This document shows, piece by piece, positions 2,247 to 15,458 of a DNA stretch of 16,503 bases; position 1 is the first letter of the stretch, and every line of letters starts with the position of its first letter. This stretch comes from Nanobdellati archaeon (lineage in GTDB: Archaea > B1Sed10-29 > JAGVWA01): the NCBI GenBank assembly GCA_018304505.1, contig JAGVWA010000008.1, positions 1 to 16,503 on the forward strand, written 5' to 3'. A program made the translations under genes and the position numbers. Below the pieces are notes generated by a model that was not told the DNA's origin, did no database searches, and saw only the letters and a program-made list of their open reading frames with translations.

Positions 2247-2828
2247 GTGGGACACACACAGATAACAACAATAGCAAGAGACACCAAGGTTCTTGATAAA
2301 TCGCTAGACGAGATCGATACCGACCGGGTTGTCTTCGTCACGGAGAAAAAGGACTTGAAAAAGACCCTTGGCCTCCGGAATAGGTTTGCGCTAAAGCACA
2401 AGCTCCCGACAGAGACCAGAACAATACTTGACATGAACAAGGTCGCAGAGACAATAGCGCATTACGAGAACCCGGTTTTGCACATCATCGAACACCACTT
2501 CATTAACTACCCCCTGATGAATGCGGCATTTGTCCTCGGGATACCGGTTTTTGTTTCCAACGGCAGGGGGCTTGAAAAAATCACTGGCCTGGAGTTCAAG
2601 TTCAGGGACCTGCTGAGCGAAAACCAGCAGAAGATCATCTCGACGCTGGCTGAAAAGCAAATGTCGATTAAGCAGTTGGCCCACACGCTCGACATAGAGG
2701 AGCGCGTCATATTCTACTACCTGCACGGAAAACAGTCCCTGAAGGGTCTAGTCAACCTGGGCATTGTAACACAGGAAAACGATCTACTTAAGATAACGCC
2801 CGTGGGCAGAATGATCGCGTGCTCGTGA
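2247..2828 (+). CDS. Rossmann (CARF-like) plus winged-helix regulator
   Basis: The start is taken at GTG 2247, with GGGG seven bases before it, giving 193 residues. The frame is open back to ATG 2121, but that upstream part is low-complexity hydrophobic and overlaps the divergent promoter. Residues about 5-110 alternate strands and helices like a small Rossmann fold (DTDRVVFVTEKKD, VLHIIEHHF, MNAAFVLGIPVFVSN). Such folds joined to a C-terminal winged helix are typical of CARF-wHTH regulators, but the usual ligand-binding loop is not clear. Residues about 120-190 are a MarR-like HTH (LLSENQQKIISTLAEKQ, MSIKQLAHTL, FYYLHGKQSLKGLVNLGIV). Its last eight codons, stop included, are the 24-bp sequence repeated at 4066. 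Assignment to CARF is tentative. Confidence 0.6.
   Translation: MGHTQITTIARDTKVLDKSLDEIDTDRVVFVTEKKDLKKTLGLRNRFALKHKLPTETRTILDMNKVAETIAHYENPVLHIIEHHFINYPLMNAAFVLGIPVFVSNGRGLEKITGLEFKFRDLLSENQQKIISTLAEKQMSIKQLAHTLDIEERVIFYYLHGKQSLKGLVNLGIVTQENDLLKITPVGRMIACS
2805..2828 (+). repeat. left copy of 24-bp direct repeat (end of the regulator gene)
   Basis: This copy encodes G-R-M-I-A-C-S and the TGA stop. It matches 4066-4089 at all 24 positions. The flanking bases (G2804 and T2829 against T4065 and G4090) differ, so the repeat ends exactly at the stop codon. Confidence 0.95.
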
Positions 2829-2838
2829 TGCACATAAT

Positions 2839-3384
2839 TCACAGGGTCGTTTTCGCTATATGCTGAATCAGCGTTTCCATTCTGTTCACAAAGGCCCCCG
2901 CATTTTTCAATAGCCGTTCTGCTGCATCTTTTCCTGTTTCCTCTGTTACACCATATTGCGCAGTTTCCCGCTGCCTTCTCGCATACCTCAATTTTTGAAC
3001 GTACTCCTCTTCAAGCTCTCTAGCTTGCTTCAATTTTTCCAAGAACTCTTTTTCTAATAGTTTCTTTCTTACAAAGAAGACCTCAAGAGCTATTATCGTT
3101 GCAGTATGATTGTCGCTTTTGTAACCAATTGACGCAAGCGCAGCCAATGCAGAATGATACATTGCATAATACGCCGTAATGACAACCCAATCAAAGGCCG
3201 AGAAATCCTCTGGCAGCCCCAAGATTTTCTTTGCATCTTCCTTGTTGCTCAAACCCCTAGCAGCATCGCTGAAGAGGAGGTTGTGCCTGGCTTTTTCCAT
3301 AAAATGGGGCGCAACCCTTTTTATGAAGGGGGTTTTTCCACATAGCCCTCTGTCTTCAAATTCCCTGAGTTTCTGCCTTGTCAT
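2839..3384 (-). CDS. HEPN-domain toxin (UPF0332-like)
   Basis: This is a 181-residue all-helical protein. The centre, with VVITAYYAMYHSALAALAS (residues 67-85) followed by GYKSDNHTATIIALE, is the characteristic core of HEPN proteins of the UPF0332 type, which pair with minimal nucleotidyltransferases. HEPN toxins are ribonucleases with an Rx4-6H motif. Here the matching segment is YARRQRETAQYG (134-145), with Arg residues and a Tyr but no His, so the catalytic activity is uncertain; the Tyr could be a modification target as in HepT/MntA (known for that family, inferred here). Its ATG overlaps the end of the nucleotidyltransferase gene by four bases (3381-3384), so the two are coupled in translation. 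Confidence 0.8.
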   Translation of the reverse strand: MTRQKLREFEDRGLCGKTPFIKRVAPHFMEKARHNLLFSDAARGLSNKEDAKKILGLPEDFSAFDWVVITAYYAMYHSALAALASIGYKSDNHTATIIALEVFFVRKKLLEKEFLEKLKQARELEEEYVQKLRYARRQRETAQYGVTEETGKDAAERLLKNAGAFVNRMETLIQHIAKTTL

Positions 3385-4010
3385 TTAATCGCCTCAAACA
3401 CTGTTGCGTAGTACTTTTCATAACCATAAAGGATGACAGCGTCGAGCAGTATTTCCTGAGCCACCATTGGTTTCTCCGACTTAAGCATGTTCTTAAATTC
3501 AGTAGCGGTTGTAATCAACGGCGCAATGTCCTTGCCGTACCTTTTTTCAACCCCCAAGCATACTCTTTCTACTTTCTCCCGCACCTCAAAATTAGAAATC
3601 ATAATGAGGAGATCAACATCACTGTGATCTGTCTCAGTCCCTTTTGCATAGCTGCCATATAATACAACTGAAAGTAATTCGTTGGGTATTGCTTTTTCTA
3701 AATCCCTTACAATCTCACCAAGCAGTTTTTGAACAACAACATCTTTTTTCAGGTACCCCTGCGCCCTATTCAGGCTTATTCTCTCAAGGACATTCCTTGC
3801 TAAATTGCTTTCCATGTTGAGGCCTATGTAAGAATAAGCGCCAACCCGCCCCTCCTTAAATGCACCCTCATTTATGAGATGATGCACATGCCTATAAACA
3901 GCATCATATGATAACTGTGTAAGCAAAGAGAGCTTCCGGATAGTGAATTTCTTCTTCAAATCCGGCAAAAACTGCTCGAAAATCCCATCAATGAATTCAA
4001 CCTTAACCAT
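3381..4010 (-). CDS. MNT nucleotidyltransferase antitoxin with N-terminal winged helix
   Basis: The protein has 209 residues. Residues about 20-60 form a winged helix (FTIRKLSLLTQLSYDAVYRHVHHL, INEGAFKEGRVGAYSYIGL), presumably for binding its own promoter. Residues about 95-200 are a minimal nucleotidyltransferase with the polymerase-beta motif: G119-S120, then D131 and D133 in GSYAKGTETDHSDVDLLI. In characterised HEPN/MNT pairs the MNT enzyme adds AMP to the HEPN toxin and so neutralises it; that reaction is inferred here. ATG at 4010 follows a TATA box and a perfect 16-bp palindrome. The gene is first in its operon, with a four-base overlap into the HEPN gene. Fusion of HTH and MNT makes it a self-contained antitoxin and repressor candidate. 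Confidence 0.85.
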   Translation of the reverse strand: MVKVEFIDGIFEQFLPDLKKKFTIRKLSLLTQLSYDAVYRHVHHLINEGAFKEGRVGAYSYIGLNMESNLARNVLERISLNRAQGYLKKDVVVQKLLGEIVRDLEKAIPNELLSVVLYGSYAKGTETDHSDVDLLIMISNFEVREKVERVCLGVEKRYGKDIAPLITTATEFKNMLKSEKPMVAQEILLDAVILYGYEKYYATVFEAIK

Positions 4011-4018
4011 ACGATTTC

Positions 4019-4034
4019 ACGATAATATTATCGT
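4019..4034 (-). promoter_or_regulatory. 16-bp palindromic operator of the HEPN/MNT operon
   Basis: ACGATAATATTATCGT is a perfect palindrome. It lies eight bases upstream of the ATG at 4010 and downstream of the TATA box (AGTTTATATAC, about 4052-4042, minus strand). This is where a repressor would block initiation. The winged helix of the first gene is the obvious candidate binder. Confidence 0.72.
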
Positions 4035-4041
4035 TAAAACA

Positions 4042-4052
4042 GGTATATAAAC
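4042..4052 (-). promoter_or_regulatory. TATA box of the HEPN/MNT operon
   Basis: The minus strand reads AGTTTATATAC, a good archaeal TATA core. Initiation about 25 bases on falls within or just after the palindrome at 4019-4034, giving a very short leader or none. Confidence 0.65.
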
Positions 4053-4065
4053 TTATCGAAAGCAT

Positions 4066-4089
4066 GGCAGAATGATCGCGTGCTCGTGA
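4066..4089 (+). repeat. right copy of 24-bp direct repeat (non-coding)
   Basis: Identical to 2805-2828 and not in a gene here. It carries the regulator gene's last codons and stop out of context, as expected for the distal product of an insertion or integration event. Confidence 0.95.
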
Positions 4090-4095
4090 GGAAAG

Positions 4096-4104
4096 TTTTT
4101 TAAA
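4096..4104 (+). promoter_or_regulatory. TATA box of the unknown gene at 4137
   Basis: TTTTTTAAA-type box seven bases after the right repeat. Initiation is expected near 4129, giving a leader of a few bases before ATG 4137. Confidence 0.5.
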
Positions 4105-4136
4105 CTTTAATTACACAAAATATAACGTGTTTTTAC

Positions 4137-4514
4137 ATGTGGGCTGTTAATGACATAAGTTATGCCGAGGCGAGGAAACTTACCGTAGGCGCAGACGCAG
4201 GGCCGATTAGATTCAAGGGCTCTGAGACCCACCCACGGGGGTCTTATTATGTTGTTGGCGACCGCGTTATCAAGAGCGGCAAGGAGTCACTTGAGTTCAC
4301 AGGCCACGATGCGCGCAACATATTCTCGGCACTCAGGGGCACCACGTCGCAAGACATCGCCACCGCAAAGCGATTTCTAACACTGGCAAAAAATGGCGGT
4401 GACAAACTAGGGGGTATAGAAAAACTGGAAAGTAGGCTGGCTGCGCTTGAGGCACGAAGAGAAACAATGGAATTCTCTCATGCGAATCCCCAAACAAGGC
4501 TGGAGCACTTTTAA
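4137..4514 (+). CDS. unknown 125-residue protein
   Basis: I do not recognise this protein. It is soluble, with no signal peptide, membrane segment or cysteines. The first half has small-domain character (GPIRFKGSETHPRGSYYVVGDRVIKSGKESLEF); the second half is helical and charged, with a likely short coiled coil (LGGIEKLESRLAALEARRETME, about 93-114). Codon choice resembles the host genes rather than the adjacent toxin cassette, so I take it to be part of the original chromosome. Before the cassette arrived, it would have followed the CARF-like regulator by 47 bases in the same orientation. A TATA box precedes it and a T run follows at 4532-4538. Confidence 0.6.
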   Translation: MWAVNDISYAEARKLTVGADAGPIRFKGSETHPRGSYYVVGDRVIKSGKESLEFTGHDARNIFSALRGTTSQDIATAKRFLTLAKNGGDKLGGIEKLESRLAALEARRETMEFSHANPQTRLEHF

Positions 4515-4531
4515 TAGCTTTCCAAAAGGTC

Positions 4532-4538
4532 TTTTTTT
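4532..4538 (+). terminator. T-run terminator after the unknown gene
   Basis: Seven T residues, 17 bases after the stop codon, match the oligo-T signals that end archaeal transcripts. A separate perfect hairpin (CAATGCC / GGCATTG at 4551-4557 and 4564-4570) lies between this gene and the convergent eL40 gene and may serve either. Confidence 0.5.
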
Positions 4539-4629
4539 CGAGAGCGTCAACAATGCCAAGCAGGGCATTGCTTTCACTTGCTTTCGCTTGCCTTAACTTA
4601 CAAACTTACTATAACCCAAACTGCTAAGG

Positions 4630-4773
4630 CTACTTCTTGCCCTGCTTCTTAGACCTGAGCTGGTCAGACCCACACTTTCTGCATTTCTTTACCGTCTTCG
4701 GGTTCCTGGCCTTGCATTTCCTGCAAACGGTCTTGTCAAACATCCTTGCCTTCAGTTCTGGAAATATTGGCAT
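4630..4773 (-). CDS. rpl40e: large-subunit ribosomal protein eL40
   Basis: This is a 47-residue basic zinc-ribbon protein, close to the usual length of archaeal eL40 (no ubiquitin fusion). It reads MPIFPELKARMFDKTVCRKC and continues with the second pair of cysteines, so C17-x2-C20 and C31-x2-C34 bind zinc. It is a structural protein of the 50S subunit. ATG 4773 is preceded by the ribosome site GAGGTG, five bases upstream, and a TATA box lies at about 4828-4820 on the minus strand. It is transcribed away from the tRNA cluster, so the space 4774-4942 holds two divergent promoters. The family assignment is secure from the cysteine spacing and flanking sequence. Confidence 0.93.
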   Translation of the reverse strand: MPIFPELKARMFDKTVCRKCKARNPKTVKKCRKCGSDQLRSKKQGKK

Positions 4774-4942
4774 TTTCGCACCTCACATAAAATGAGCAAT
4801 AGCTTTTTGCTGATTTCTGGTATATAAATGAATGTGTCTACCATCGACCTTGAAGATGGACCCCTTAAATAGTCACATTTATATACTGAAAAAGGGACAA
4901 AATCATTACGCTTTCTACAAAGCACGTCATCTTTATTGAGCC
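4774..4942. promoter_or_regulatory. divergent promoters of eL40 and the tRNA-Glu transcript
   Basis: On the minus strand, TTTATATACC at about 4828-4819 serves eL40. On the plus strand, TTTATATAC at about 4878-4886 is the best box before tRNA-Glu; initiation near 4908 would give a leader of about 35 bases removed by RNase P. Otherwise the stretch is featureless apart from a weak inverted repeat CCATC/GATGG at 4841-4859. Confidence 0.5.
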
Positions 4943-4964
4943 GTCCCGTTAGTCTAGTGGCCAT

Positions 4965-4997
4965 CTGCTGCCTCTTCAATGAGGAGCGGCAGGCCAA
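4965..4997 (+). other. D-loop intron of tRNA-Glu (noncanonical position)
   Basis: The central helix is GGCC (4959-4962) with GGCC (4992-4995). The 5' bulge is ATC (4963-4965), the inner helix TGCTGC/GCGGCA (4966-4971 with 4986-4991), and the 3' bulge AAA (4996-4998). Cutting after the second base of each bulge gives a 33-base intron. Because GGCCA is repeated at both ends, boundaries could shift by a base or two. The outer helix is poor, so this is a relaxed BHB. Confidence 0.7.
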
Positions 4998-5015
4998 AAG
5001 GATTCGGCCCTTTCA

Positions 5016-5046
5016 TACTCACCCCCTCCGGGAGACGAGTGGAGAA
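5016..5046 (+). other. anticodon-loop intron of tRNA-Glu (canonical 37/38)
   Basis: A full BHB is visible. Outer helix CGGCC/GGCTG; central helix CTTT (5010-5013) with GGAG (5041-5044), using two G-U pairs; 5' bulge CAT (5014-5016); inner helix ACTC/GAGT (5017-5020 with 5037-5040); 3' bulge AAA (5045-5047). Cutting CA|T and AA|A removes 31 bases and leaves a seven-base loop. Confidence 0.85.
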
Positions 5047-5112
5047 AGGCTGAGACACGGGTTCAAATCCCGTACGGGGCATAGGCACAAAAAAAACACA
5101 AATGGTGATCAA

Positions 5113-5220
5113 TTGAAAAGCAAGCCGCGAAGATGGAAAAAGAAAAACAACTCCCGCTGGAAGTGGGTCAAGAAGAAAATGCGGAAACGCAAACGCAAGG
5201 AAAAAATGAGAAAGAGATAA
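5113..5220 (+). CDS. rpl41e: probable large-subunit ribosomal protein eL41
   Basis: This 35-residue protein is almost entirely Lys and Arg: MKSKPRRWKKKNNS, then SRWKWVKKKMRKRKRKEKMR. The second part matches the eL41 consensus (KW-x-KKRMRRLKRKRRKMR) in position of the Trp, the Met and the basic run; eL41 is a 25-residue single helix at the subunit interface. The start is TTG 5113, with GGTGAT at 5104-5109 three bases before it, the same spacing as the small gene at 365. The ten or so extra N-terminal residues are unusual. It sits 31 bases after tRNA-Glu and 30 before tRNA-Leu with no clear promoter of its own, so it is probably co-transcribed. Low complexity limits certainty. Confidence 0.72.
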   Translation: MKSKPRRWKKKNNSRWKWVKKKMRKRKRKEKMRKR

Positions 5221-5250
5221 ATCTAGGCTTGCCGCTATTTCTCATTAATC

Positions 5251-5369
5251 GCAGGGGTGCCGGAGTTCGTCCACTCGCTGAACGCGGCGGGCGACCGGAC
5301 TGGTCAAACGGGATGGGCTTAGGACCCATTGGCTTAGTGCCTACGAGGGTTCAAACCCCTTCCCCTGCA
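5251..5369 (+). tRNA. tRNA-Leu(UAG) with a D-loop intron
   Basis: Acceptor arms GCAGGGG (5251-5257) and CCCCTGC (5362-5368) pair perfectly, discriminator A5369. T arm is GAGGG-TTCAAAC-CCCTT (5345-5361). Anticodon arm ATGGG-CTTAGGA-CCCAT (5313-5329) gives anticodon TAG (5320-5322). A long variable arm (GGC/GCC stem within 5330-5344) is the class II form typical of Leu. The D arm is interrupted by 35 bases (5266-5300). Joined, it reads CCGGAGTGGTCAAACGGG, a standard archaeal Leu D arm, and the mature RNA has 84 bases. CCA is not encoded. The last 18 bases plus two downstream recur at 5474-5493. Confidence 0.92.
5266..5300 (+). other. D-loop intron of tRNA-Leu (noncanonical position 15/16)
   Basis: The central helix is CCGG (5260-5263) with CCGG (5295-5298). 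The 5' bulge is AGT (5264-5266), the inner helix TCGTC/GGCGA (5267-5271 with 5290-5294), and the 3' bulge ACT (5299-5301). Cutting AG|T and AC|T restores the canonical D arm exactly. The outer helix is absent, so this is a relaxed BHB. Confidence 0.82.
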
Positions 5370-5371
5370 TC
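5352..5371 (+). repeat. 20-bp repeat, copy in the tRNA-Leu 3' end
   Basis: CAAACCCCTTCCCCTGCATC covers the T-loop end, T-stem and acceptor strand, the discriminator and two bases beyond. It recurs exactly at 5474-5493. Confidence 0.95.
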
Positions 5372-5408
5372 AGAGGGACTTCGTCCCTTCTATCCCTGAA
5401 GCACTGCA

Positions 5409-5442
5409 CTCGCCTTCGGCGAGGCAGAGCAAAACAATTTTT
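5409..5442 (+). terminator. hairpin plus T run, possible end of the tRNA-Leu transcript
   Basis: The stem CTCGCC/GGCGAG closes a cTTCGg-type tetraloop and is followed 14 bases later by AATTTTT. It is about 40 bases after the mature tRNA end. Confidence 0.4.
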
Positions 5443-5473
5443 GGTGCAGCTTTTTCATAAAAAGGTGCGTTCC

Positions 5474-5493
5474 CAAACCCCTTCCCCTGCATC
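5474..5493 (+). repeat. 20-bp repeat, orphan copy of the tRNA-Leu 3' end
   Basis: Exact copy of 5352-5371, 122 bases downstream, with no tRNA body before it. It resembles the distal attachment site left when an element integrates into a tRNA 3' end, here with only 102 bases between the copies. Confidence 0.9.
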
Positions 5494-5667
5494 CAGCTTT
5501 TTTGCGCGGCAAAAAACCTGGGAAAAAAACGATCCGCACCGTTGCAAAGCAACGGGGCAGCGGTTCTATGGTACAACTTGTTACATGCTCTTTAGCACCT
5601 TAAAGTGCGAAACGAATTGCGGATATCGCCCGTTTGACAACGCAAGAATCGAGGAACGTGTGCCTCG

Positions 5668-5693
5668 TATTAAGCCATCGGGCATGCTTAATA
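5668..5693 (+). promoter_or_regulatory. inverted repeat overlapping the TATA box of the HD/alaS operon
   Basis: TATTAAGC and GCTTAATA are perfect eight-base arms ten bases apart. The right arm carries TTAATAA (5688-5694), correctly placed about 25 bases before the leaderless ATG at 5717. A factor bound here would cover the TATA box, so this is a candidate operator. Confidence 0.5.
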
Positions 5694-5716
5694 ACTAGAA
5701 AAAGCACAACCCATCC

Positions 5717-6913
5717 ATGACCTTTATCAAAGACCCGATACACGGCCTGATCAAGATCAGCCCCCTGCAAGAAGACCTGATTAGCTCGCCAGAAATGCAG
5801 CGCTTGGGCTGGGTAAAGCAACTCTCACTCACTAAACTTATTTTTCCCGGCGCAAACCATACCCGCTTAGAGCATTCAATCGGCGTGTCGCACATTGCAG
5901 GCCAGATGGCCGATTCGCTAGAACTCGAAGACACTGAAAAAGACCTCGTGCAGGTCGCGGGGGTGCTGCATGACGTGGGCCACGGCCCATTTTCGCATGC
6001 CCTCGAAGGACTCTTTCCAATCTCACACGAAGAAAGGACACAACAAATCATTCTGGGCAAGTGGGCATCTAACATACCTGGCGCCGGCGAGATTCCAAAT
6101 CTACTAGAATCGCAGGGCATAGACCCAACCGAAGTTGCACAGCTCGTCTCAGGAGAACACAAATCGCACTACCTGCGCTCCATAATCCATTCTGAAGTAG
6201 ACGCAGACCGACTAGATTACACTAGCAGGGACGCGCACTATACGGGCCTCTTAACTCGGCCTGAGATCGACAGGACGGTAATGGTGCTAACAAGACAAGG
6301 TGACGAGATGGCAGTTGAAGAGAAGGGCATACCCGCTGTCGAAACGCTGCTGTTCTATAGAACCATGCTCTTCACCTCCATCTATAACCACCATGCCAAC
6401 AACATCGCATCGCGGATGCTGGAAAAAGCAACGCATGCCGCCCTACCCCACTTAGAGGACATTGAAAACATGACAGATGATGAACTAATGGTGGCTCTGA
6501 CAAACCATGGCGGCTTGCCAAAGGAACTCATAGAACGGATCCGGTACAGGGAGCTTTACAAGCGGGCCTTCGAAATCAAGTCGCGCACGACAAGCCAACA
6601 AGAGCTCGCGCTCTACGAAAAAGCACGGCATTACAGCCTCGAGCAAATCGAAAGCAAGATAACAAACGAGCTAGAGCTAAATGAAGCTGACGTGCTCGCG
6701 AGTTTTCCGCGCGGAACCCCTTCGGCAAAAACAATGGACCTAAAGGTATTCACGAAGCAAGGGGAGCTAAGGCCAATAATGGAAATGAGCAGCATCCTCG
6801 AAGCCCTATCAAAAATAAACCCAACCAACGTGCTTTTTGCCATATACTCAAAACCAGAACTAAGAGACGCCATAAGCACGGCAGCACGACAATACATAGA
6901 AGAAGGTTTTTGA
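5717..6913 (+). CDS. HD-superfamily phosphohydrolase (COG1078, SAMHD1/dGTPase-like)
   Basis: The protein has 398 residues, near the family norm. The metal-binding HD motif is complete: H53 in HTRLEHSIGVSHIA, H85-D86 in LHDVGHGPFSH, and D162/D164 in SEVDADRLDY. This COG1078 pattern is shared with SAMHD1 and bacterial dGTPases, so hydrolysis of deoxynucleoside triphosphates is likely, though some relatives act on other phosphoesters. The opening FIKDPIHGLIKISPLQEDLI is typical of the family. ATG 5717 follows a TATA box at 5688-5694 and is probably leaderless. The TGA at 6911-6913 touches the alaS start with no gap, so the two are co-transcribed. A functional tie to alanyl-tRNA synthesis is not evident. 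C-terminal residues about 290-398 are less conserved and unassigned. Confidence 0.92.
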   Translation: MTFIKDPIHGLIKISPLQEDLISSPEMQRLGWVKQLSLTKLIFPGANHTRLEHSIGVSHIAGQMADSLELEDTEKDLVQVAGVLHDVGHGPFSHALEGLFPISHEERTQQIILGKWASNIPGAGEIPNLLESQGIDPTEVAQLVSGEHKSHYLRSIIHSEVDADRLDYTSRDAHYTGLLTRPEIDRTVMVLTRQGDEMAVEEKGIPAVETLLFYRTMLFTSIYNHHANNIASRMLEKATHAALPHLEDIENMTDDELMVALTNHGGLPKELIERIRYRELYKRAFEIKSRTTSQQELALYEKARHYSLEQIESKITNELELNEADVLASFPRGTPSAKTMDLKVFTKQGELRPIMEMSSILEALSKINPTNVLFAIYSKPELRDAISTAARQYIEEGF

Positions 6914-9628
6914 ATGCTGACAAAAGAAAAAATCCGCGCTGACTTATCAAATGACTACAAAAAACACTATGAAGTGCCACTGTTCCAGCAGCATGGCTTT
7001 ACGCGCAAGGCCTGCAAAACCTGCAAGCGGGCATTCTGGACCGCAGACAAATCCAGGGAGCTTTGCGAAGACTCGAGCTGCGTGGACTTCGAATTCATAG
7101 AAACCAAACCAAGGAAAGTCGATTTCATTGACACATGGAAAAAATTCGAAAAGTTTTTCGTCAAGAATGGGCATTACAGCATGCCTAGGTATCCAATCAT
7201 TGCACGATGGAAGCCAGACCTTTATTTCACCATCGCAAGCATTGTCGACTTCCAGCGAGTTGAACAGGGCAAGCTGTTCTTCTCCTACCCGAACGACAAG
7301 ATCGTCGTGCCGCAGCCCTGCCTAAGGTTCGGCGACATCGAAAATGTCGGCGTAACAGGGGCCCACATGACGGGATTTGTCATGACGGGCCAGCACGCAT
7401 TCAATTACCCCAAAGAAGGGTATTGGAAAAACGAGTGCCTCGACTTGAATTTCGAAGTGCTCACTAAAGTTTTCAAGGTTCCAAAAGGGGACTTTGTTTA
7501 CAAGGAAGACGTGTGGGCAATGCCAGACTTCTCTGCCTTTGGACCTTGCATCGAGGTAATGAGCAAGGGCAATGAAATCGTCAACAACGTGTTCATGGAA
7601 TTCCAGGCAGCGCCAACAGGAACTGGATACAAGCCATTGGACACAAAGGTAATCGACGTTGGTTGGGGCCACGAACGCCTGTGCTGGTACCTCAGCGGGG
7701 AGCCAACGATTTACGATACCGCTTTCGGGCCAGTGATGAAGAAAGTCAAAAAGGAATCCAGCATCGAGTACGATAGGGACTTTTTCGACAGGTATGCCAA
7801 AATCGCGGGCAAGCTAAACATCGACGAGGTTAAAGACATCCGCGCAGCGCGGAAGCAAATCGCAAAACAATTGAACGTGAAGCCGGAGTTCCTGCAAAAG
7901 AACCTTGAGCCACTGCAAGCCCTTTACAGCGTTGTCGAGCATTCCAGGTCACTGGCCTTTGCCATCGCTGACGGCGGTTTACCCAGTAATGCCGGCGGGG
8001 GCTACAATCTGCGCATTATCCTGAGGCGCGCAATGAACTTCATCAGAGAGCACCAAATCCCATTCACGCTGTCAGAACTCGCATTGCAGCACGCCGAATA
8101 CCTAAAGCCGATGTACCCAGAGCTGATGAAGAATCAGAAAGAGATCACAGAGATCATCAAAATCGAGGAGGACAAATTCGCAAGATCCGTTATACGCGCA
8201 GGAAAACAGATCACAACCCTGCTTGAAAAGAAAACTAAATTCGACCTGAAGACCCTGATGACACTATATGAGTCGCACGGCATCACCCCTGAAATCCTGG
8301 AGGAAAACGCTTACCGAACTGGAAAGAAAATCGAGATCCCTCAGGACTTCTATCAAACCCTGACAGGAAAACACGAAGCCCGAGAGCCCAAACAAGAGAA
8401 AACCCCATTTGACTTGTCTGGAATTCCCAATACTGAGAAGCTGTTTTACGAACGCATATACGAATTCGATGCTCAGGTAATAAAAACCCTCAAAATCGAC
8501 AAACGCCATTACATCATCCTGGACAGGACCGCGTTCTACCCAGAAGGCGGTGGCCAGTTGTTTGACATAGGACAAATCGACAATGCCCACGTCATCCAGG
8601 TACAGAAAATCGGCGACGTGGTGATACACGAAATCGACAATGAATTGAAGAAAAAAAACGTGCACTGCATCATCAACAAGGAGCGCAGGGAATCCTTGAG
8701 GAGGCACCACAGTGCCGCACACCTGCTTAACGGTGCAGCAAAAAAGCTGCTGGGAAACCACGTTTGGCAAGCCGGGGCGGAGAAGACGCCTGAAAAAGGC
8801 AGGTTAGACATAACGCATTATGACAGCCTCAGTAACGAAGAATTGCAGAAGATTGAGGACATGGCAAACCAGGTCATTCATGAAAAACGGCCCGTGGCAA
8901 ACCCAGTTCTACCACGACTTGAGGCAGAAAAGAAATACGGTTTTACGCTCTACCAGGGGGGTGCGGTTCCAGGGAAGCAGCTTAGGATAGTTGACATCAA
9001 GGACTGGGACGTCGAGGCCTGCGGCGGAACACATGTAAGCAACACAGGCGAAATCGAATGCGTCAAGATCACAAAGGCAAAGAAGATCCAGGACGGAATA
9101 ATACGGCTCGAATACGTGGCAGGCAACACTCTGTGTGCAAAGGCAGACAAAACACAAGTAAACACAGAATTCGACGAGAGCGATCGGTGGATAAAAGAAG
9201 TTGACGCGATGCTCAAGACAAAGAACCAGCTAACGGGCGAAATTGACTTCATTGATTTCGACTCAGCAACGCTCGAAGAGCTGCAGGAAAAGTTCAAGTC
9301 GCTCAAAAAAGAGCTCGCTGAGATACGAAACAGGATAGTGCATTCTATCGATACAGCATCACCAGTGCAGTACCTCCAAGACGCGGACATGAAAACGCTA
9401 CAAGAGATGGCTGAAAAAATCCTTGAGCACCATGCCTTCACCGTGTTGTTGTCAAACGGCATGGTTCTTGGAAAGGGAAAACACGCAGGCCTTGAAAACG
9501 TTGTTGAGAAATGCGCGGAAATAATGGGCGGGAAGGCCGGCGGGAAACCGGGGGAATACAAAGGCGGTGGGCCTTACGCTGAAAAAACAAAAGACGCCTT
9601 TGAATTTGCAAAAAAGCAACTGGTGTAA
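6914..9628 (+). CDS. alaS: alanyl-tRNA synthetase, archaeal type
   Basis: The protein has 904 residues, the usual archaeal length, and charges tRNA-Ala in the cytoplasm. It starts with the archaeal N-terminal zinc-like module (C34, C37, C51, C56, FWT between). The class II catalytic core follows: FEKFFVKNGHYSMPRYPIIARWKPDL, EFQAAPTG region and GWGHERLCWYLSGEPTIYDT. The QALYSVVEHSRSLAFAIADGG segment and RILRRA follow. The editing domain is present with HHSAAH (598-603) and CGGTH (703-707), the zinc site that deacylates Ser- or Gly-tRNA-Ala. The C-terminal DHHA1-like part ends with the Gly-rich GGKAGGKPGEYKGGGP. Start ATG directly follows the stop of the HD gene. No truncation or intein is seen. 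Confidence 0.97.
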   Translation: MLTKEKIRADLSNDYKKHYEVPLFQQHGFTRKACKTCKRAFWTADKSRELCEDSSCVDFEFIETKPRKVDFIDTWKKFEKFFVKNGHYSMPRYPIIARWKPDLYFTIASIVDFQRVEQGKLFFSYPNDKIVVPQPCLRFGDIENVGVTGAHMTGFVMTGQHAFNYPKEGYWKNECLDLNFEVLTKVFKVPKGDFVYKEDVWAMPDFSAFGPCIEVMSKGNEIVNNVFMEFQAAPTGTGYKPLDTKVIDVGWGHERLCWYLSGEPTIYDTAFGPVMKKVKKESSIEYDRDFFDRYAKIAGKLNIDEVKDIRAARKQIAKQLNVKPEFLQKNLEPLQALYSVVEHSRSLAFAIADGGLPSNAGGGYNLRIILRRAMNFIREHQIPFTLSELALQHAEYLKPMYPELMKNQKEITEIIKIEEDKFARSVIRAGKQITTLLEKKTKFDLKTLMTLYESHGITPEILEENAYRTGKKIEIPQDFYQTLTGKHEAREPKQEKTPFDLSGIPNTEKLFYERIYEFDAQVIKTLKIDKRHYIILDRTAFYPEGGGQLFDIGQIDNAHVIQVQKIGDVVIHEIDNELKKKNVHCIINKERRESLRRHHSAAHLLNGAAKKLLGNHVWQAGAEKTPEKGRLDITHYDSLSNEELQKIEDMANQVIHEKRPVANPVLPRLEAEKKYGFTLYQGGAVPGKQLRIVDIKDWDVEACGGTHVSNTGEIECVKITKAKKIQDGIIRLEYVAGNTLCAKADKTQVNTEFDESDRWIKEVDAMLKTKNQLTGEIDFIDFDSATLEELQEKFKSLKKELAEIRNRIVHSIDTASPVQYLQDADMKTLQEMAEKILEHHAFTVLLSNGMVLGKGKHAGLENVVEKCAEIMGGKAGGKPGEYKGGGPYAEKTKDAFEFAKKQLV

Positions 9629-9676
9629 TGTTGCGCGGCTGCACGCGGAAGCTTGATCTAACATGACGAGTAAAGC

Positions 9677-9685
9677 CTTTTAAAC
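9677..9685 (+). promoter_or_regulatory. TATA box of the membrane-protein pair
   Basis: CTTTTAAAC lies about 25 bases before ATG 9707, implying a leaderless transcript for the 9707-11861 pair. Confidence 0.6.
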
Positions 9686-9706
9686 CCGCCTCGTTTTTAC
9701 TAACAC

Positions 9707-11107
9707 ATGAAACCAAAACACCTCGCGGTTTTACTTATACTCATTATCACATTAGGTGTTGCGCAACAGATACAAGTAAACGCAGACCAGGCCAGGGAAA
9801 AGGTTGTGGCTTTTGAACAGCCAGGGGAAACCGATGACATAAAGCCCCGGGAAACTGTCACGACCAGCCAAGGGCAGTACTGGGTCGTCGAGATCCTGCG
9901 CGGTGGCAGGATAATAACGCTAGTGCCAGTTAGCGCGGACACTGGAAGCATTGAGTTTGAAGGCGAGCACGTCAAAGACGCCATCAAGATACACTATCTA
10001 GCCAATTACTTCACGACACAGAAATCAATTGTTGACTACTTAAGCAGCACACGTGCCTATGCACGGAACAAGCAGAGCGCGTTTTCAGACAAGCACAGCT
10101 CTTTTACAGCCAGCATTGAGCCGACGATACCTGAAAACGTGACGCTGACAAAGAAAGCAGCGTACTTATTGGCACTGACAACCGCGCGGGACAACGCGAA
10201 CAAGCTAGGTGAAGCCACAAAAACTGCTGAGGGTGCAATTGCCACTATACGATCCGTAAATGACATCGATAGCCTTGATGGGATGTTCGACGAATTTTTC
10301 GGCGCGTACGACACCTTCCTTACTTCATTGAGCTCGCTTTCGACACGCATTGTTGAGTTCAACACCGAGATAAACGCGAAATCAAACGCCGGGGAACTTG
10401 ACGCACAGACCGCGACAATAGTCTCCCTGACGATTCAAGAGCAGGGCCTGACACAGGAAATAATCGAGAAACGCGATGACGTTGATGCCAACAAGGGTTC
10501 CATCCAGACCAACTTGTTTGGAAAACTCAGCGAGCAAGTTGACGAATTCCAGATAAACCTCGCAGACCGGGTTGCAGGTGGCCTGCAAGACCGGGAAATA
10601 AAAAGCATACAAGACCGTGTCAAGAACCTGTCTGCAAACTACACAACAGTTTTCAACAACTCACTAGCGTTGCCCCAATACTACATTGATGAAAAAAACC
10701 TTGAACAAAAGGCAAACACGATAACCCAAAAGCTGCAAATCGCTACAGAGGAATGCGCGAAGGGCTATGCAGAGTGCAAACAAATAGAGCCGTCATTGAC
10801 AGACATTGAAACGCTGCTAGCCGAGATGCAGCAGGCCATCAGCAGCTACTCGCCGCTTGAATGCACGAACGGAAAAATCGAGCGCGGGGGAAGATGCGTT
10901 TGCCCAGCGGGCACAGAAGAAGACCCCCAGGGCAGGTGCGTTACTCCACAGGAGCAGCAATCAACGGGGACGCAGACCTCGACACTAATCATTATAATCA
11001 TCGTGATCATAATCATAATAGCAATTGTTTACAAGTTTACAAGCGGGGGAAAAAAGGATGAAACACCTGAGATGGAAAGTTCCTATTTTGGCTTTGATAA
11101 TCAGTAG
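9707..11107 (+). CDS. secreted, membrane-anchored coiled-coil protein with Cys module
   Basis: I do not recognise the family. The protein has 466 residues. A signal peptide or N-terminal anchor is seen at 1-24 (MKPKHLAVLLILIITLGVAQ), followed by a small beta-rich region to about 100, and a long Ala/Glu/Lys/Gln-rich helical region (about 105-375) likely to form coiled coils. A Cys module (about 384-407: CTNGKIERGG, RCVCPAG, GRC) resembles short EGF-like or 'C-x-C-PxG' motifs. A single membrane helix of almost pure Ile/Val (about 422-444) and a short basic-acidic tail (SGGKKDETPEMESS) close the chain. The topology suggests an outside-facing stalk. It overlaps the next gene by 50 bases. The start is supported by the TATA box at 9677-9685. 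Confidence 0.78.
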   Translation: MKPKHLAVLLILIITLGVAQQIQVNADQAREKVVAFEQPGETDDIKPRETVTTSQGQYWVVEILRGGRIITLVPVSADTGSIEFEGEHVKDAIKIHYLANYFTTQKSIVDYLSSTRAYARNKQSAFSDKHSSFTASIEPTIPENVTLTKKAAYLLALTTARDNANKLGEATKTAEGAIATIRSVNDIDSLDGMFDEFFGAYDTFLTSLSSLSTRIVEFNTEINAKSNAGELDAQTATIVSLTIQEQGLTQEIIEKRDDVDANKGSIQTNLFGKLSEQVDEFQINLADRVAGGLQDREIKSIQDRVKNLSANYTTVFNNSLALPQYYIDEKNLEQKANTITQKLQIATEECAKGYAECKQIEPSLTDIETLLAEMQQAISSYSPLECTNGKIERGGRCVCPAGTEEDPQGRCVTPQEQQSTGTQTSTLIIIIIVIIIIIAIVYKFTSGGKKDETPEMESSYFGFDNQ

Positions 11108-11861
11108 CCTGCTTCTTTCTACGGGCTTAGCTGACCTTACTGGCATCCTCGAGTTGACACAGAAAACGCTATACCAAGGCGAAAGCGCCACGCTAACAGT
11201 CGCCTTGCGAAACACCGGCTTCCAGAGGGAAGACGACATATCCCTGACAATTAACATGGTGCAGGCCCTCGGCGGAGCGAAAACAGTCAAGATACCACAA
11301 TTGCACCCAGGCGGAACCTACACGCGCGACATCTTCATCCAGACGCTTTCAGACACACCCCTCGGGGAATATGAGATAACCGGCACTGTGCAGCAAAAGG
11401 GCTTTGCACAACCGATACCGATAGCAACGGGGACCCTTAACGTCAAGGCGTATCCCATAATTACCTCGCATGTGCTACAAAAGGAGGCCTTTGCACAAGC
11501 GGAAGAAAGCAAGCTCACGATACGAACTGAAAATAAGGGGCAGGACGTGCTGAAGGACGTGCGCATCAAGTTAATCTATCCCCCCAACTTCATTGCACCA
11601 ACAACAGAACAGCTCATCGGAGACCTGGCCCCAGAAGAGGAGATCAGCAAGACGTTTTCATTTACAACGCCAAAGAAAGGCGCCGCGTATCACGTTAGCG
11701 TCGAAACAACCTTTAGCGACCAAGATGGGGCACACGTCCCCCGACTTTATACACTATCGCTGAACGTCGCCGGCGAACAGCAATTTGGGTTCATCGAAAC
11801 TATCTTGACAATAATAATACTGCTGCTCATTATCCGATTGTTCTGGGCAAAGTTCGCATGA
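11058..11861 (+). CDS. membrane-anchored protein with two Ig-like (CARDB/S-layer-type) domains
   Basis: With start ATG 11058 the protein has 268 residues and begins with a clear signal peptide, MKHLRWKVPILALIISSLLL then STGLA. A start at 11025 is open but would put a polar stretch before it. Residues about 30-135 and 140-245 are two beta-sandwich repeats of the CARDB type: ESATLTVALRNTGFQREDD / LHPGGTYTRDIFIQ, then ESKLTIRTENKGQDVLKDV / LAPEEEISKTFSFTTPKKG. A C-terminal membrane helix (about 247-264) ends the chain. Such domains are common in archaeal surface proteins (COG1361-like). It overlaps the coiled-coil gene by 50 bases in another frame, so the two are translated from one mRNA and probably form one envelope complex. 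Confidence 0.78.
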   Translation: MKHLRWKVPILALIISSLLLSTGLADLTGILELTQKTLYQGESATLTVALRNTGFQREDDISLTINMVQALGGAKTVKIPQLHPGGTYTRDIFIQTLSDTPLGEYEITGTVQQKGFAQPIPIATGTLNVKAYPIITSHVLQKEAFAQAEESKLTIRTENKGQDVLKDVRIKLIYPPNFIAPTTEQLIGDLAPEEEISKTFSFTTPKKGAAYHVSVETTFSDQDGAHVPRLYTLSLNVAGEQQFGFIETILTIIILLLIIRLFWAKFA

Positions 11862-11924
11862 CAGTAACTGGCACCCCCGCCTGACAGACACCCCCCAAGT
11901 TCCAGTAAACTTCCGCAAAAAGGA

Positions 11925-11930
11925 TTTAAA
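11925..11930 (+). promoter_or_regulatory. TATA box of mcm
   Basis: TTTAAA in AAAGGATTTAAAG lies 25-29 bases before ATG 11954. It fixes that codon, rather than ATG 11936, as the likely leaderless start. Confidence 0.6.
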
Positions 11931-11953
11931 GAACATTGTACACAATAGTGGGC

Positions 11954-13996
11954 ATGGGTGAATCTAATTCTCACTACGTGGCAAAGTTCGAACAGTTCTT
12001 CAATTCTTATTACAAACAAAAGATAGAACGCCTAGCTGAGGTGTACCCTGAACAGCAAAGCCTGCTAATTGATTACCCCACCCTGGAAAGATACGAACCA
12101 GAGGTAGCCGATGAGCTACGCGAAAAGCCCTACGTCATTCTCGAATCAGCAGAAGAAGCGCTTAAGTCGCTCGGGCTTGTGAACAGTGCAGGCGTAGAAA
12201 TCACGCCGCGGACGCGCATTGTGAACATGCCACAGGACGCCAATGTCCCAGTAAAGCACATAACCTCTCACGTGATCAACAAATTCATAGGTGTCGAAGG
12301 AGTAGCGACAAAAGTCACAGACGTAAAACCCCGACTCATTACCGCAGTTTTCCAATGCACTCGCTGCGATCGAATCTACACCCTTCACCAGAACGAGCAA
12401 ACAGGCCGCCTAAATGAACCGAAGACCTGCACATGCGAAAACAAAACGTTTAATTTGCTAGAGGACCACTCGACATTTATTGACACGCAGAAAATCGAAG
12501 TGCAGGAGCCCCTAGAGCAACTCAGGGGTGGCGAACAGGCCAAAATGCTGACATGCTGGCTCGAAGCAGACCTCACAAACAAGATCACTCCAGGCGACAA
12601 GCTCTTGCTGACTGGAACAGTGCGGCTGCAGAACCCGAAGTTCAAAGGCTCTATTTACGAAAAATACCTCGACACGAATTCAGTGACAAAACTTGAAAGG
12701 GAATTCGAAGAGATTGAATTAACAAAAGAAGAACAAGAAAAAATCATCGAGCTAAGCAAGGACCCTGACTTGTACAAAAAAATCGTAGCAAGCATCGCAC
12801 CATCGATCTACGGCCACAGCGAGATCAAAGAGGCCATCGCACTACAACTATTTGGAGGCACCCCCGGAAAAATAACGCCAGACGGAATGAAAATCAGGCC
12901 CGACATGCACCTCTTATTAATAGGGGACCCTGGAGTCGCAAAGTCCAGACTTCTACAATACGTCACGCAACTAGCGCCAAAGGGCATCTATGTATCTGGA
13001 AAATCCAGCTCGGCGGCTGGTTTGACTGCTTCGGCCGAAAAGGATGACTTTGGCGAAGGCGGCTGGGTCTTGAAAGCAGGGGCCCTTGTACTCAGTGCTG
13101 GAGGACAGTGTTCCATCGATGAGTTTGACAAGATGGGCGAGGAAGACAGAAGCAGCATGCACGAGGCCATGGAGACACAACAAATCCATGTTGCAAAAGC
13201 AGGCATAGTGGCCACATTCAAGGCCAACACTGCAATCCTCGCAGCAGCAAATCCTAAGTATGGCCGCTTCGATCCATATGGCCTACCGGCAGAACAGTTC
13301 AACATCACCCCAACTATCCTTTCGCGTTTCGATTTAATCTTCACCGTGCGCGATGTCCTTGATTCAAACAGGGATCGGGAGCTAGCAGAGAAGATATTGA
13401 CAACGCACCAGAAAGCCGCAATGCACCAACAGGAACTCGACCTGCAAGGCATAATAGATACAGACTTCCTCAGGAGGTACATCGGATATGCGCGCAAAGA
13501 AATCAGGCCAATACTCGGCGACAAGGCAAAAAAGAAAATGCTGGAGTTCTACGTCAACCTCCGCAAGTTAGGAGAAAAACAAAACAGCATTCCTATTACC
13601 GCGCGACAACTCGAGGGGGTTATCAGGCTCGCCGAGGCCAGCGCGAAAGGAAGGCTGAGCAAAACAGTAGACGTCGAAGATGCTGATCGTGCAATCAAGC
13701 TAACGAATTACTACATGAAAGAAGTCGGCGTAGACCCAGATACAGGACAGCTTGATGTTGACATAGTTTTCCTTGGCACAAGCAAATCCAGGGTTGACAG
13801 GACAAAGAACATCCTACGCATAATAAAGAAGCTGAGCCAGGAATTCGACGAAGTGAAGACAGAAATGATTATAGAAGAGGCAAAAACAGAAGGCCTTAAA
13901 GAAGAGGACATCGAAAACGTCCTGTCCGAGCTGCGGAAGAACGGGGAAGTGTACATGCCCCGACATGGGGTGTACAAACCAGCAGAACAGCGGTAA
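11954..13996 (+). CDS. mcm: replicative DNA helicase MCM
   Basis: With the leaderless start the protein has 680 residues, normal for archaeal MCM, the hexameric 3'-5' helicase of the replication fork. The N-terminal domain includes an OB region with a zinc ribbon (FQCTRCDRIY, then CTC). The AAA+ core has Walker A GDPGVAKS (324-331), Walker B CSIDEFDK (from 386), sensor 1 AANPKYGRFDP and the Arg finger in SRFDLIF (about 457). A C-terminal winged helix (about 605-675, VKTEMIIEEAKTEGL, NGEVYMPRHGVYK) completes it. No intein interrupts it. Codon 1 of the longer frame (11936) would lie between TATA box and expected start site, so it is unlikely. Its last six codons, stop included, recur at 15441-15458. 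Confidence 0.96.
   Translation: MGESNSHYVAKFEQFFNSYYKQKIERLAEVYPEQQSLLIDYPTLERYEPEVADELREKPYVILESAEEALKSLGLVNSAGVEITPRTRIVNMPQDANVPVKHITSHVINKFIGVEGVATKVTDVKPRLITAVFQCTRCDRIYTLHQNEQTGRLNEPKTCTCENKTFNLLEDHSTFIDTQKIEVQEPLEQLRGGEQAKMLTCWLEADLTNKITPGDKLLLTGTVRLQNPKFKGSIYEKYLDTNSVTKLEREFEEIELTKEEQEKIIELSKDPDLYKKIVASIAPSIYGHSEIKEAIALQLFGGTPGKITPDGMKIRPDMHLLLIGDPGVAKSRLLQYVTQLAPKGIYVSGKSSSAAGLTASAEKDDFGEGGWVLKAGALVLSAGGQCSIDEFDKMGEEDRSSMHEAMETQQIHVAKAGIVATFKANTAILAAANPKYGRFDPYGLPAEQFNITPTILSRFDLIFTVRDVLDSNRDRELAEKILTTHQKAAMHQQELDLQGIIDTDFLRRYIGYARKEIRPILGDKAKKKMLEFYVNLRKLGEKQNSIPITARQLEGVIRLAEASAKGRLSKTVDVEDADRAIKLTNYYMKEVGVDPDTGQLDVDIVFLGTSKSRVDRTKNILRIIKKLSQEFDEVKTEMIIEEAKTEGLKEEDIENVLSELRKNGEVYMPRHGVYKPAEQR
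13979..13996 (+). repeat. left copy of 18-bp repeat (end of mcm)
   Basis: Encodes P-A-E-Q-R and the TAA stop. Identical to 15441-15458; flanking bases differ on both sides, so the repeat ends exactly at the stop codon. Confidence 0.95.
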
Positions 13997-14054
13997 GCAG
14001 GCCAAAACCGGAATTAAGCTCTTTTCGGAAGCTTGGAAGCCACTAAAGGTAACC

Positions 14055-14083
14055 TTTATATATTATACACTTAATGTATAATA
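14055..14083 (+). promoter_or_regulatory. TATA box and 9-bp inverted repeat operator of the AbiE-like operon
   Basis: TTTATATATT (about 14055-14064) is a strong TATA core. TATTATACA (14061-14069) and TGTATAATA (14075-14083) form a perfect inverted repeat with a five-base spacer, ending three bases before ATG 14086. AbiEi-type antitoxins are known to repress their operon by binding inverted repeats at the promoter; that role is inferred here. Confidence 0.72.
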
Positions 14084-14085
14084 AC

Positions 14086-14715
14086 ATGATTAAACTAACT
14101 GAAAAAAGGCAGGGCGTGATACTGTGGATTTTGGAAAACAAAAACAGGAGCTGGTCTATTCATGAACTCTGCACCAGCCTTGGTGGCCTGACGTATCCAA
14201 GCACTTATGATTTTGTCAACCACCTCCTAGAAGCCGGGCATTTGATACGCACCCAAACACGAGAGTTCATGCTAGTGAATACCCGTGCCTTGATATCGCA
14301 GTTGGCATTCACATTCCCATTTAAAGCAAAGAAGAAAAGCTCTTTCTTCATCAAGTTAGGCATGAAAGACAAAATGAGTCTGCTGAAAGACATCAAACTA
14401 GATTACGCACTCACGGCATTTGCAGCCGCCGAGTTGCTGCACCCATATGTCAAGACCGAGAAAGTCCATGCATATGTTAGAACACGTGACATAGAGACAT
14501 GGAAGAAACTGCTAACCAAAAAAAACGCCAGGCCAGCCTATGAAGATGAAGCCAACTTGTTTTTGCTCCCTGTTGAAGAAAACTATTACTTCAAACTATC
14601 AAGAAAGATCCACGGTTTCAGCATATCCCCCCCGGGACTTGTTTTAGCTGATCTAATTTCAATAGGGGGGCTTGGAGAGGAGCATGCGAAGGTGATTGAG
14701 GAGGGGGTGAGATGA
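14086..14715 (+). CDS. AbiEi-like winged-helix antitoxin
   Basis: Start ATG 14086 is preferred over 14074 because 14074 lies in the spacer of the operator and ahead of the expected initiation point; the protein then has 209 residues. Residues about 1-65 form a winged helix (KRQGVILWILENKNRSWSIH, LTYPSTYDFVNHLLEAGHLI, a short wing ending in FMLVN). Residues about 75-205 make a second domain of unassigned fold (LLKDIKLDYALTAFAAAELL, a strand-rich region, SPPGLVLADLISIGG). This order fits AbiEi antitoxins of type IV systems, which bind their operator with the HTH and neutralise the partner through the second domain. ATGA overlap (14712-14715) couples it to the nucleotidyltransferase. Assignment is by architecture and context. 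Confidence 0.68.
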   Translation: MIKLTEKRQGVILWILENKNRSWSIHELCTSLGGLTYPSTYDFVNHLLEAGHLIRTQTREFMLVNTRALISQLAFTFPFKAKKKSSFFIKLGMKDKMSLLKDIKLDYALTAFAAAELLHPYVKTEKVHAYVRTRDIETWKKLLTKKNARPAYEDEANLFLLPVEENYYFKLSRKIHGFSISPPGLVLADLISIGGLGEEHAKVIEEGVR

Positions 14716-15425
14716 TCGATGAAATCATGACCGAGTATTCAAACAAATACCTACTGAGCCTATTCAAAGATGTTAAACAAAAAAGGGACATTGGCTTGAT
14801 GGGGGGTTGGGCAGTTCACTATCTTTTGAAAGAAGCAGGCATTGAGCACATCGGCTCGAGAGACATTGATATTTTCTTTAACCCAAATAAAATCCCGTTT
14901 GAAAAAATCAGACAACTAATTGAAAGTAAGGGCTTTAAACCACACTCAACTTTTAGGTGGGTGAAGTTCATTCACCGGCTTAGTGGACGGGAAATGAATA
15001 CAGACGAGGCAAGCAAAATACCCCAATATGATCAGTGTGTTGTCTATGTTGATGTGGCAGCTCCACAACACATTGATAGCAGGGTAATGGAACAGCCGCT
15101 TTTAAATAGGGTGTTTGACGGAGAATTTAAGCAGATCATGGTGAGCAACACCAAGATCATGGTTCCCAATGAAAGGCTTATGATTGAAATGAAATTGAAT
15201 TCTTCCGGAGAGCGCGGCGATCCATTTAAAAAATCAAAAGACATTGCAGATCTTTTCATGTTAGTATACAATGAGCCAGTGTTGCTGGAAACCACTGACA
15301 AAAAACTAAGGAAAAAATTCCGCTCCCAGCTAGAGCATTTTAGAACGTCAGGGAGCCTCGCTGATGCTGCATCAATGCTGGGCGTGCCAGTAAGCCGCAT
15401 ACTACGCACCCTGGAGGACATTTAA
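14712..15425 (+). CDS. AbiEii-like nucleotidyltransferase toxin
   Basis: The protein has 237 residues. The nucleotidyltransferase motif is visible: GGWAVHYLL (31-39), then G48-S49-R50-D51-I52-D53 in HIGSRDIDIFF, giving the DxD metal-binding pair. Later conserved parts are VYVDVAAPQ and MIEMKLNSSGER with KKSKDIADLFMLV (about 155-182), which match motifs III and IV of the AbiEii family (Lys, Arg, KD-x2-D). Family members modify tRNA ends or other RNAs with nucleotides and block translation; the target here is unknown. The final residues (SLADAASMLGVPVSRILRTLEDI) look like a small HTH, unusual for the toxin partner. It overlaps the antitoxin gene by four bases and ends 15 bases before the repeat copy. 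Confidence 0.78.
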   Translation: MIDEIMTEYSNKYLLSLFKDVKQKRDIGLMGGWAVHYLLKEAGIEHIGSRDIDIFFNPNKIPFEKIRQLIESKGFKPHSTFRWVKFIHRLSGREMNTDEASKIPQYDQCVVYVDVAAPQHIDSRVMEQPLLNRVFDGEFKQIMVSNTKIMVPNERLMIEMKLNSSGERGDPFKKSKDIADLFMLVYNEPVLLETTDKKLRKKFRSQLEHFRTSGSLADAASMLGVPVSRILRTLEDI

Positions 15426-15440
15426 CCCATGAACTAGAAG

Positions 15441-15458
15441 CCAGCAGAACAGCGGTAA
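15441..15458 (+). repeat. right copy of 18-bp repeat (non-coding copy of the mcm end)
   Basis: Identical to the last six codons of mcm, but here it follows the nucleotidyltransferase stop by 15 bases and is outside any gene. Confidence 0.95.

Follow-up and report, generated by a model that had tools for sequence, protein, structure and literature searches.

It has long been asked how toxin-antitoxin (TA) modules spread when no carrier can be seen, and the question arises for a stretch of 16,503 nucleotides from the Nanobdellati archaeon B1Sed10-29 (GenBank assembly GCA_018304505.1, contig JAGVWA010000008.1; this whole stretch is referred to here as the window). Within the window, the 3′ ends of a regulator gene, a tRNA-Leu gene, and mcm each recur downstream, and the copies at the two protein genes enclose gene pairs of TA families. 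A sequence-only reading had taken these pairs for cassettes targeted to gene ends and mobilized by one shared recombinase acting in trans. Our analysis of the whole genome suggests that many of its TA pairs are mobile in themselves, as minimal units, and we lean, with some reserve, toward a reading in which such an operon enters alone and duplicates a target or gene end over a variable length, a process that would need no dedicated recombinase.

The window is contig 16 of a 21-contig, 917-kb archaeal metagenome assembly (G000) that is 92.8% complete; 906 kb was covered, in stretches of up to 20 kb numbered with the prefix L, with open reading frames (ORFs) found by simple calling. The relatives compared were same-order and same-class genomes, including G001, G004, G005, and G012. 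A scan of genome contigs with alanyl-tRNA synthetase (AlaRS) gave distant relatives only, from genomes carrying Iainarchaeum or Micrarchaeota names (40 to 47%), and G000 is therefore placed, provisionally, in a DPANN lineage close to them.

Gene-end repeats around gene pairs in the window

The three direct repeats of the window (24, 20, and 18 bp, with start-to-start spacings of 1261, 122, and 1462 bp) are exact, as the sequence-only reading had described them, and in both protein genes the repeat ends at the stop codon with an offset of 0. The 18-bp copy at the 3′ end of mcm (11951..13996, plus strand) lies at 13979..13996 and recurs at 15441..15458 on the same strand, where it adjoins the original mcm downstream sequence. 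Between the copies, and co-directional with mcm, are a gene for an AbiEi-domain antitoxin (14074..14715, plus strand; PF09952, E = 5.1e-8) and a gene for a 237-aa AbiEii-like nucleotidyltransferase (14712..15425, plus strand). Assignment to AbiE comes from the AbiEi_2 domain match; the adjoining partner has no Pfam match and is named from its position and sequence. A longer similarity around the mcm repeat (33 bp, 85%) was not used as evidence.

The usual neighbor of mcm is a gene for a presenilin-like peptidase (PSH; family name from reading of the sequence). In most same-order and several same-class relatives, among those with a match, PSH starts within ~50 bp of mcm. PSH in G000 (15511..16380, plus strand) begins 1.5 kb after mcm and 52 bp past the second 18-bp copy. 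Because the near-adjacency of mcm and PSH is conserved in relatives, the AbiE pair is, judged from gene order, an insertion after the mcm stop codon.

The other candidate insertion follows a winged-helix-type regulator gene (2247..2828, plus strand; an ORF whose start was set from orthologs). The first 24-bp copy (2805..2828, plus strand) ends on the last base of the stop codon, and the second (4066..4089, plus strand) lies downstream of the promoter side of the cassette. Enclosed are adjacent genes for a HEPN protein, the putative toxin side (2839..3384, minus strand; PF05168, E = 4.5e-9), and the minimal nucleotidyltransferase of a HEPN/MNT pair (3381..4010, minus strand; PF01909/PF18765). 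Both are convergent with the regulator, and the HEPN stop codon is 10 bp from the repeat. Both large inserts are read here as TA pairs, as the sequence-only reading had held, with toxicity of HEPN/MNT and AbiE pairs assumed from their protein families. Regulator orthologs are present in G005 and G001, and the downstream neighborhoods differ there. A scan of viral contigs found no relative of either the MNT protein or the AbiEii-like protein.

The third case is weaker, because its insert has no gene and because copies of tRNA ends also occur in relatives, several of whose tRNAs have short downstream copies of their ends. The 20-bp repeat (5352..5371, plus strand) covers the 3′ end of tRNA-Leu (5284..5369, plus strand) and recurs at 5474..5493 (plus strand), with no recognizable gene between the two copies. 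The edge of the first copy runs 2 bp beyond the tRNA.

A homolog of the AbiE pair occurs in G012, which belongs to another family of the same class, at 70 to 71% identity (71% for the AbiEii-like protein); mcm in that genome is 55% identical. The G012 pair is at another locus, between 567-bp repeats (97% identity) that themselves contain a RelE/AbrB-type pair (named by reading their ORFs). At the DNA level, the G000 and G012 pairs resemble each other from 14044 to 15415 of the window, over the operon only, and the ends are not common to both.

In G012, mcm itself has an altered C terminus, and immediately past its stop codon is a stretch coding for FKTAEDG, which matches the mcm end of sister genomes. 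A hairpin-like motif, GTGCCAGCTGAG(A)TTTCAGCTG, precedes this displaced end and also displaced tRNA-Leu and tRNA-Arg ends, with variants at tRNA-Glu and tRNA-Ser (L167, 9438 and 14105; L181, minus strand, 10472). The pattern would fit the entry, at gene ends, of small elements that have a single conserved end, and the G012 mcm end seems to have been hit independently. Integrase-type elements are possibly behind that event, since G012 has PF00589.

Bracketed toxin genes across the genome

Further brackets of the kind predicted by the sequence-only reading are numerous in G000. With copies 250 to 4500 bp apart, a score of at least 35 bits, and pairs within one ORF left out, 47 local direct repeats were found in the 906 kb, versus 0, 2, 3, 3, and 5 when the same search was run between unrelated stretches. 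Toxin genes for comparison were taken from Pfam searches alone (ParE, PIN, HicA, and nucleotidyltransferase), a choice made against circularity. Repeats bracket 10 of these 23 toxins, compared to 3 of 220 control ORFs (Fisher P = 1.7e-9). Two of the ten bracketed toxins (L063:16013 and L071) hold a dispersed GTTTAAAC-type motif; 8 of 23 remain without them.

The contents of the brackets are mostly TA or related genes: HicA-type genes at the 3′ end of the leucyl-tRNA synthetase (LeuRS) gene (L034), HicA with HicB (L036), DUF2683 with ParE (L057), an 82-aa gene with ParE (L074), ParD with PIN_3 and PaREP1 with MNT (both L076), AbiEii with AbiEi after a 68-aa gene (L072), DUF6036 with TrmB (L082), and AAA_14 ATPases (L067 and L070). 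In L044, exact 99-bp repeats enclose two ORFs of unknown type; in L060, the bracketed genes are two unannotated ORFs beside tRNA-Ala. Direct repeats of variable length flank two-gene selfish units here, as 18 to 118 bp in G000. Repeats of ~100 bp or more do occur (99 and 118 bp in G000, 567 bp in G012), but those of the two large inserts of the window are 24 and 18 bp. Most bracket repeats are unique pairs. The cassettes are AT-richer than their flanks in all 17 tested.

A 118-bp repeat (99%; L063, 14649-14766 and 15352-15469) surrounds a ParE gene and has one copy within a PIN-like ORF, as if the cassette had been inserted into another TA gene. A 53-bp repeat (L042, 1-53 and 1866-1918) surrounds a peptidase M16 gene; one copy is within a PCNA-looking gene, and the contig begins exactly at the other.

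Repeats within a single ORF or between paralogs were dropped as brackets. This removed a repeat formed by the starts of two PIN paralogs (L075, 15100 and 15874). The 33-bit repeat around pyrB-pyrI (L061, 594 and 2645), which resembles tRNA sequence, a repeat holding the start of a HEPN gene (L076, 6223 and 8022), and a CRISPR array in G004 were also removed. Repeats outside ORFs amount to 39 per Mb in G000 versus 0 to 31 per Mb in samples of four relatives, the G004 sample having none left once the CRISPR array was removed. Relatives also have such repeats, so this kind of repeat is not unique to G000.

For repeats that overlap a gene 3′ end and have their other copy farther along, the offset of the repeat edge from the stop codon was 0 for the regulator, 0 for mcm, +1 for LeuRS, +1 for the 68-aa gene, and +34 for the 99-bp repeat of L044; the remaining overlap cases were set aside because they involved spurious ORFs, were unrelated, or fell within a TA operon. 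At tRNAs, the edge lay at 0 (Phe), +2 (Ala), and +2 (Leu) relative to the tRNA end. Among 1.25 Mb sampled from five relatives (two CRISPR stretches skipped), no protein gene had an edge at 0 to +2. As in tyrosine-recombinase elements, these cassettes have at the host gene 3′ end a core that restores the gene. The proposed targeting of gene ends holds for these edges and is too narrow for G000 as a whole, where several brackets are intergenic or upstream of genes. The differing orientations noted in the window, opposite at the regulator and the same at mcm, are likewise correct. Genome-wide, five cassettes have an edge at 0 to +2; four of these lie tail-to-tail with their host gene, the toxin-side stop codon being ~10 bp or less from the repeat, and the mcm cassette is the co-directional exception.

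Gene ends also occur in stacks. L060 holds four copies of the tRNA-Ala end and L034 three of the LeuRS end, separated by cassettes. In G012, an ATPase-type gene and a Fic gene are interspersed among repeated tRNA-Ser ends.

Proposed insertion of minimal units and its alternatives

No match to Phage_integrase (PF00589), Cas1 (PF01867), or Resolvase (PF00239) was found in G000, at 92.8% completeness, while control genomes were positive. PF00589 is also absent from many relatives, including one that is 98% complete, and is present in some, including G012. Seven repeat cores had no motif in common, no common cassette ends were found, and terminal inverted repeats were absent across 17 cassettes, among which only L063 reached P = 0.01, by way of the dispersed motif. 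A single trans-acting integrase is unlikely, because such an enzyme would need to recognize unrelated cores. The shared recombinase proposed for the window thus finds no support in an enzyme match, a common core, common ends, or terminal inverted repeats, nor in repeat lengths that range from 18 to 118 bp and reach 567 bp in G012.

Under the reading that we favor, the unit would be ~0.5 to 1.5 kb of DNA holding a promoter, two genes, and almost nothing more, and it would enter beside a host gene and leave a copy of the host-gene end or of an intergenic target on either side. Joining of TA-bearing DNA, as a circle or a fragment, may proceed by recombination of a short-homology or repair type, and the host gene would survive with its last codons supplied by the joined copy. 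Once in place, the unit could be lost again through recombination between its flanking copies, or further cassettes could be added in the same way, the pattern seen in the LeuRS and tRNA-Ala arrays. Variable target duplication fits part of the data, namely the 18- to 567-bp range, sites that are unrelated to one another, and the lack of an enzyme match; a Campbell-type process, in which the cassette brings a gene-end core with it as tRNA-targeting elements do (PMC6563490), fits another part, the edges on stop codons. The two models could be reconciled if TA DNA still bearing a gene end from a previous site were joined by a repair- or RadA-type reaction. A stronger version, in which the TA operons of these small archaea are themselves mobile and a general, recombinase-free route joins them to the tail of any gene, copies the end so as to keep the host gene intact, and stacks cassettes in the manner of an integron, we put forward only tentatively, as less probable than not.

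Several points count against insertion of minimal units. Plain target duplication does not predict edges at stop codons, for which a carried core or later trimming is needed. An assembly that is 92.8% complete could hide an enzyme. Thirteen of the 23 Pfam-found toxins are unbracketed, and some brackets are promoter- or operator-like motifs. Empty sites in relatives, which the sequence-only reading had called for, are represented by the near-adjacent mcm and PSH, a cassette-free site known only at 53 to 60% mcm identity, too diverged for base-by-base comparison of the 18 bp. The three outcomes that reading had named against itself, namely, no empty site in any relative, no further repeats of this kind in the genome, and cassettes kept by relatives at fixed loci without duplications, did not occur.

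Integrative elements have attachment sites similar to these edges at stop codons and tRNA ends, PF00589 genes are present in some relatives, and a conserved motif precedes displaced gene ends in G012; it might thus be supposed that the cassettes are non-autonomous, with attP cores that copy gene 3′ ends, and are served in trans by a tyrosine-recombinase-type integrase from a virus or plasmid. We regard this as rather unlikely, given cores without a common motif, lengths of up to 99 to 118 bp and 567 bp, a G000 assembly without an integrase match, and several brackets that are not at gene ends. Miniature casposons moved by a Cas1-type casposase would likewise favor tRNA and protein genes at their 3′ ends and would also leave direct repeats, but G000 has neither a Cas1 match nor terminal inverted repeats at its cassettes, and repeat length varies instead of being 14 to 15 bp (PMC6614799), so that this origin is very improbable. 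There is also little reason to expect that regulatory or coding repeats, remnants of paralogs, or assembly artifacts, and not insertion footprints, account for most of the brackets. A few are indeed formed by dispersed or palindromic motifs (L063:16013, L071:3891, L082:8504, and TTTAGGTTTTCCTAAATAT in L076), but most are unique sequence, 47 were found versus 0 to 5 in controls, four are coding ends of host genes, and the mcm neighborhood is broken.

Relation to known systems and further observations

The nearest parallel is the insertion of restriction-modification (RM) units with long target duplication (Nobusato et al. 2000; Furuta et al. 2010, as summarized in PMC3874152). These too are two-gene selfish units without a recombinase, flanked by variable target-derived direct repeats on the order of ~100 bp. 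The cassettes of G000 differ in their TA cargo, in that many of their repeats are just 18 to 33 bp, in that a subset of the repeats ends exactly at stop codons or tRNA ends, and in the many cases within one archaeal genome. Integrative elements of archaea share the short direct repeats at gene 3′ ends and an insert that restores the host end, with attachment sites of 8 to 26 bp in Thaumarchaeota that include protein-gene ends; those elements are larger, and most have an integrase, whereas the cassettes here are 0.5 to 1.5 kb, with unrelated cores and no integrase found (PMC6563490). Casposons likewise have 3′ ends of tRNA and EF-2 genes among their targets and duplications on both sides, but the casposase duplicates a fixed 14 to 15 bp (PMC6614799), and no Cas1 match, terminal inverted repeats, or duplication of fixed length was found in G000. 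Integron arrays resemble the LeuRS and tRNA-Ala arrays, and that of tRNA-Ser in G012, in their small stacked cassettes parted by copies of a site; in G000, by contrast, the site that recurs is the end of a host gene, a different one at each locus, and no PF00589 integrase was found.

A search confined to the open literature, DPANN archaea included, yielded no account of TA units inserted with target duplication; as evidence of novelty, this is weak. Insertion of TA operons as described here would extend insertion with target duplication from RM to TA units. Since a large part of the TA complement of a single genome bears an insertion footprint, entry points, unit boundaries, and the joining reaction become readable and testable, and, should gene ends prove a favored docking site, a scan of this type could reveal unrecognized defense or toxin cassettes in other reduced genomes.

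Two further features of G000 were observed. An apparent intron-containing tRNA gene at 4943-5082 of the window has matching acceptor halves by eye and was not reported by ARAGORN run without the intron option. Small proteins with Trp as the second residue (MW-starting) are encoded by 37 of 1022 ORFs in G000 versus 0 to 4 in samples of relatives; examples of this unannotated, lineage-specific family are found at 4137-4514 of the window, L076 7219-11005, and L078 11822-12807.

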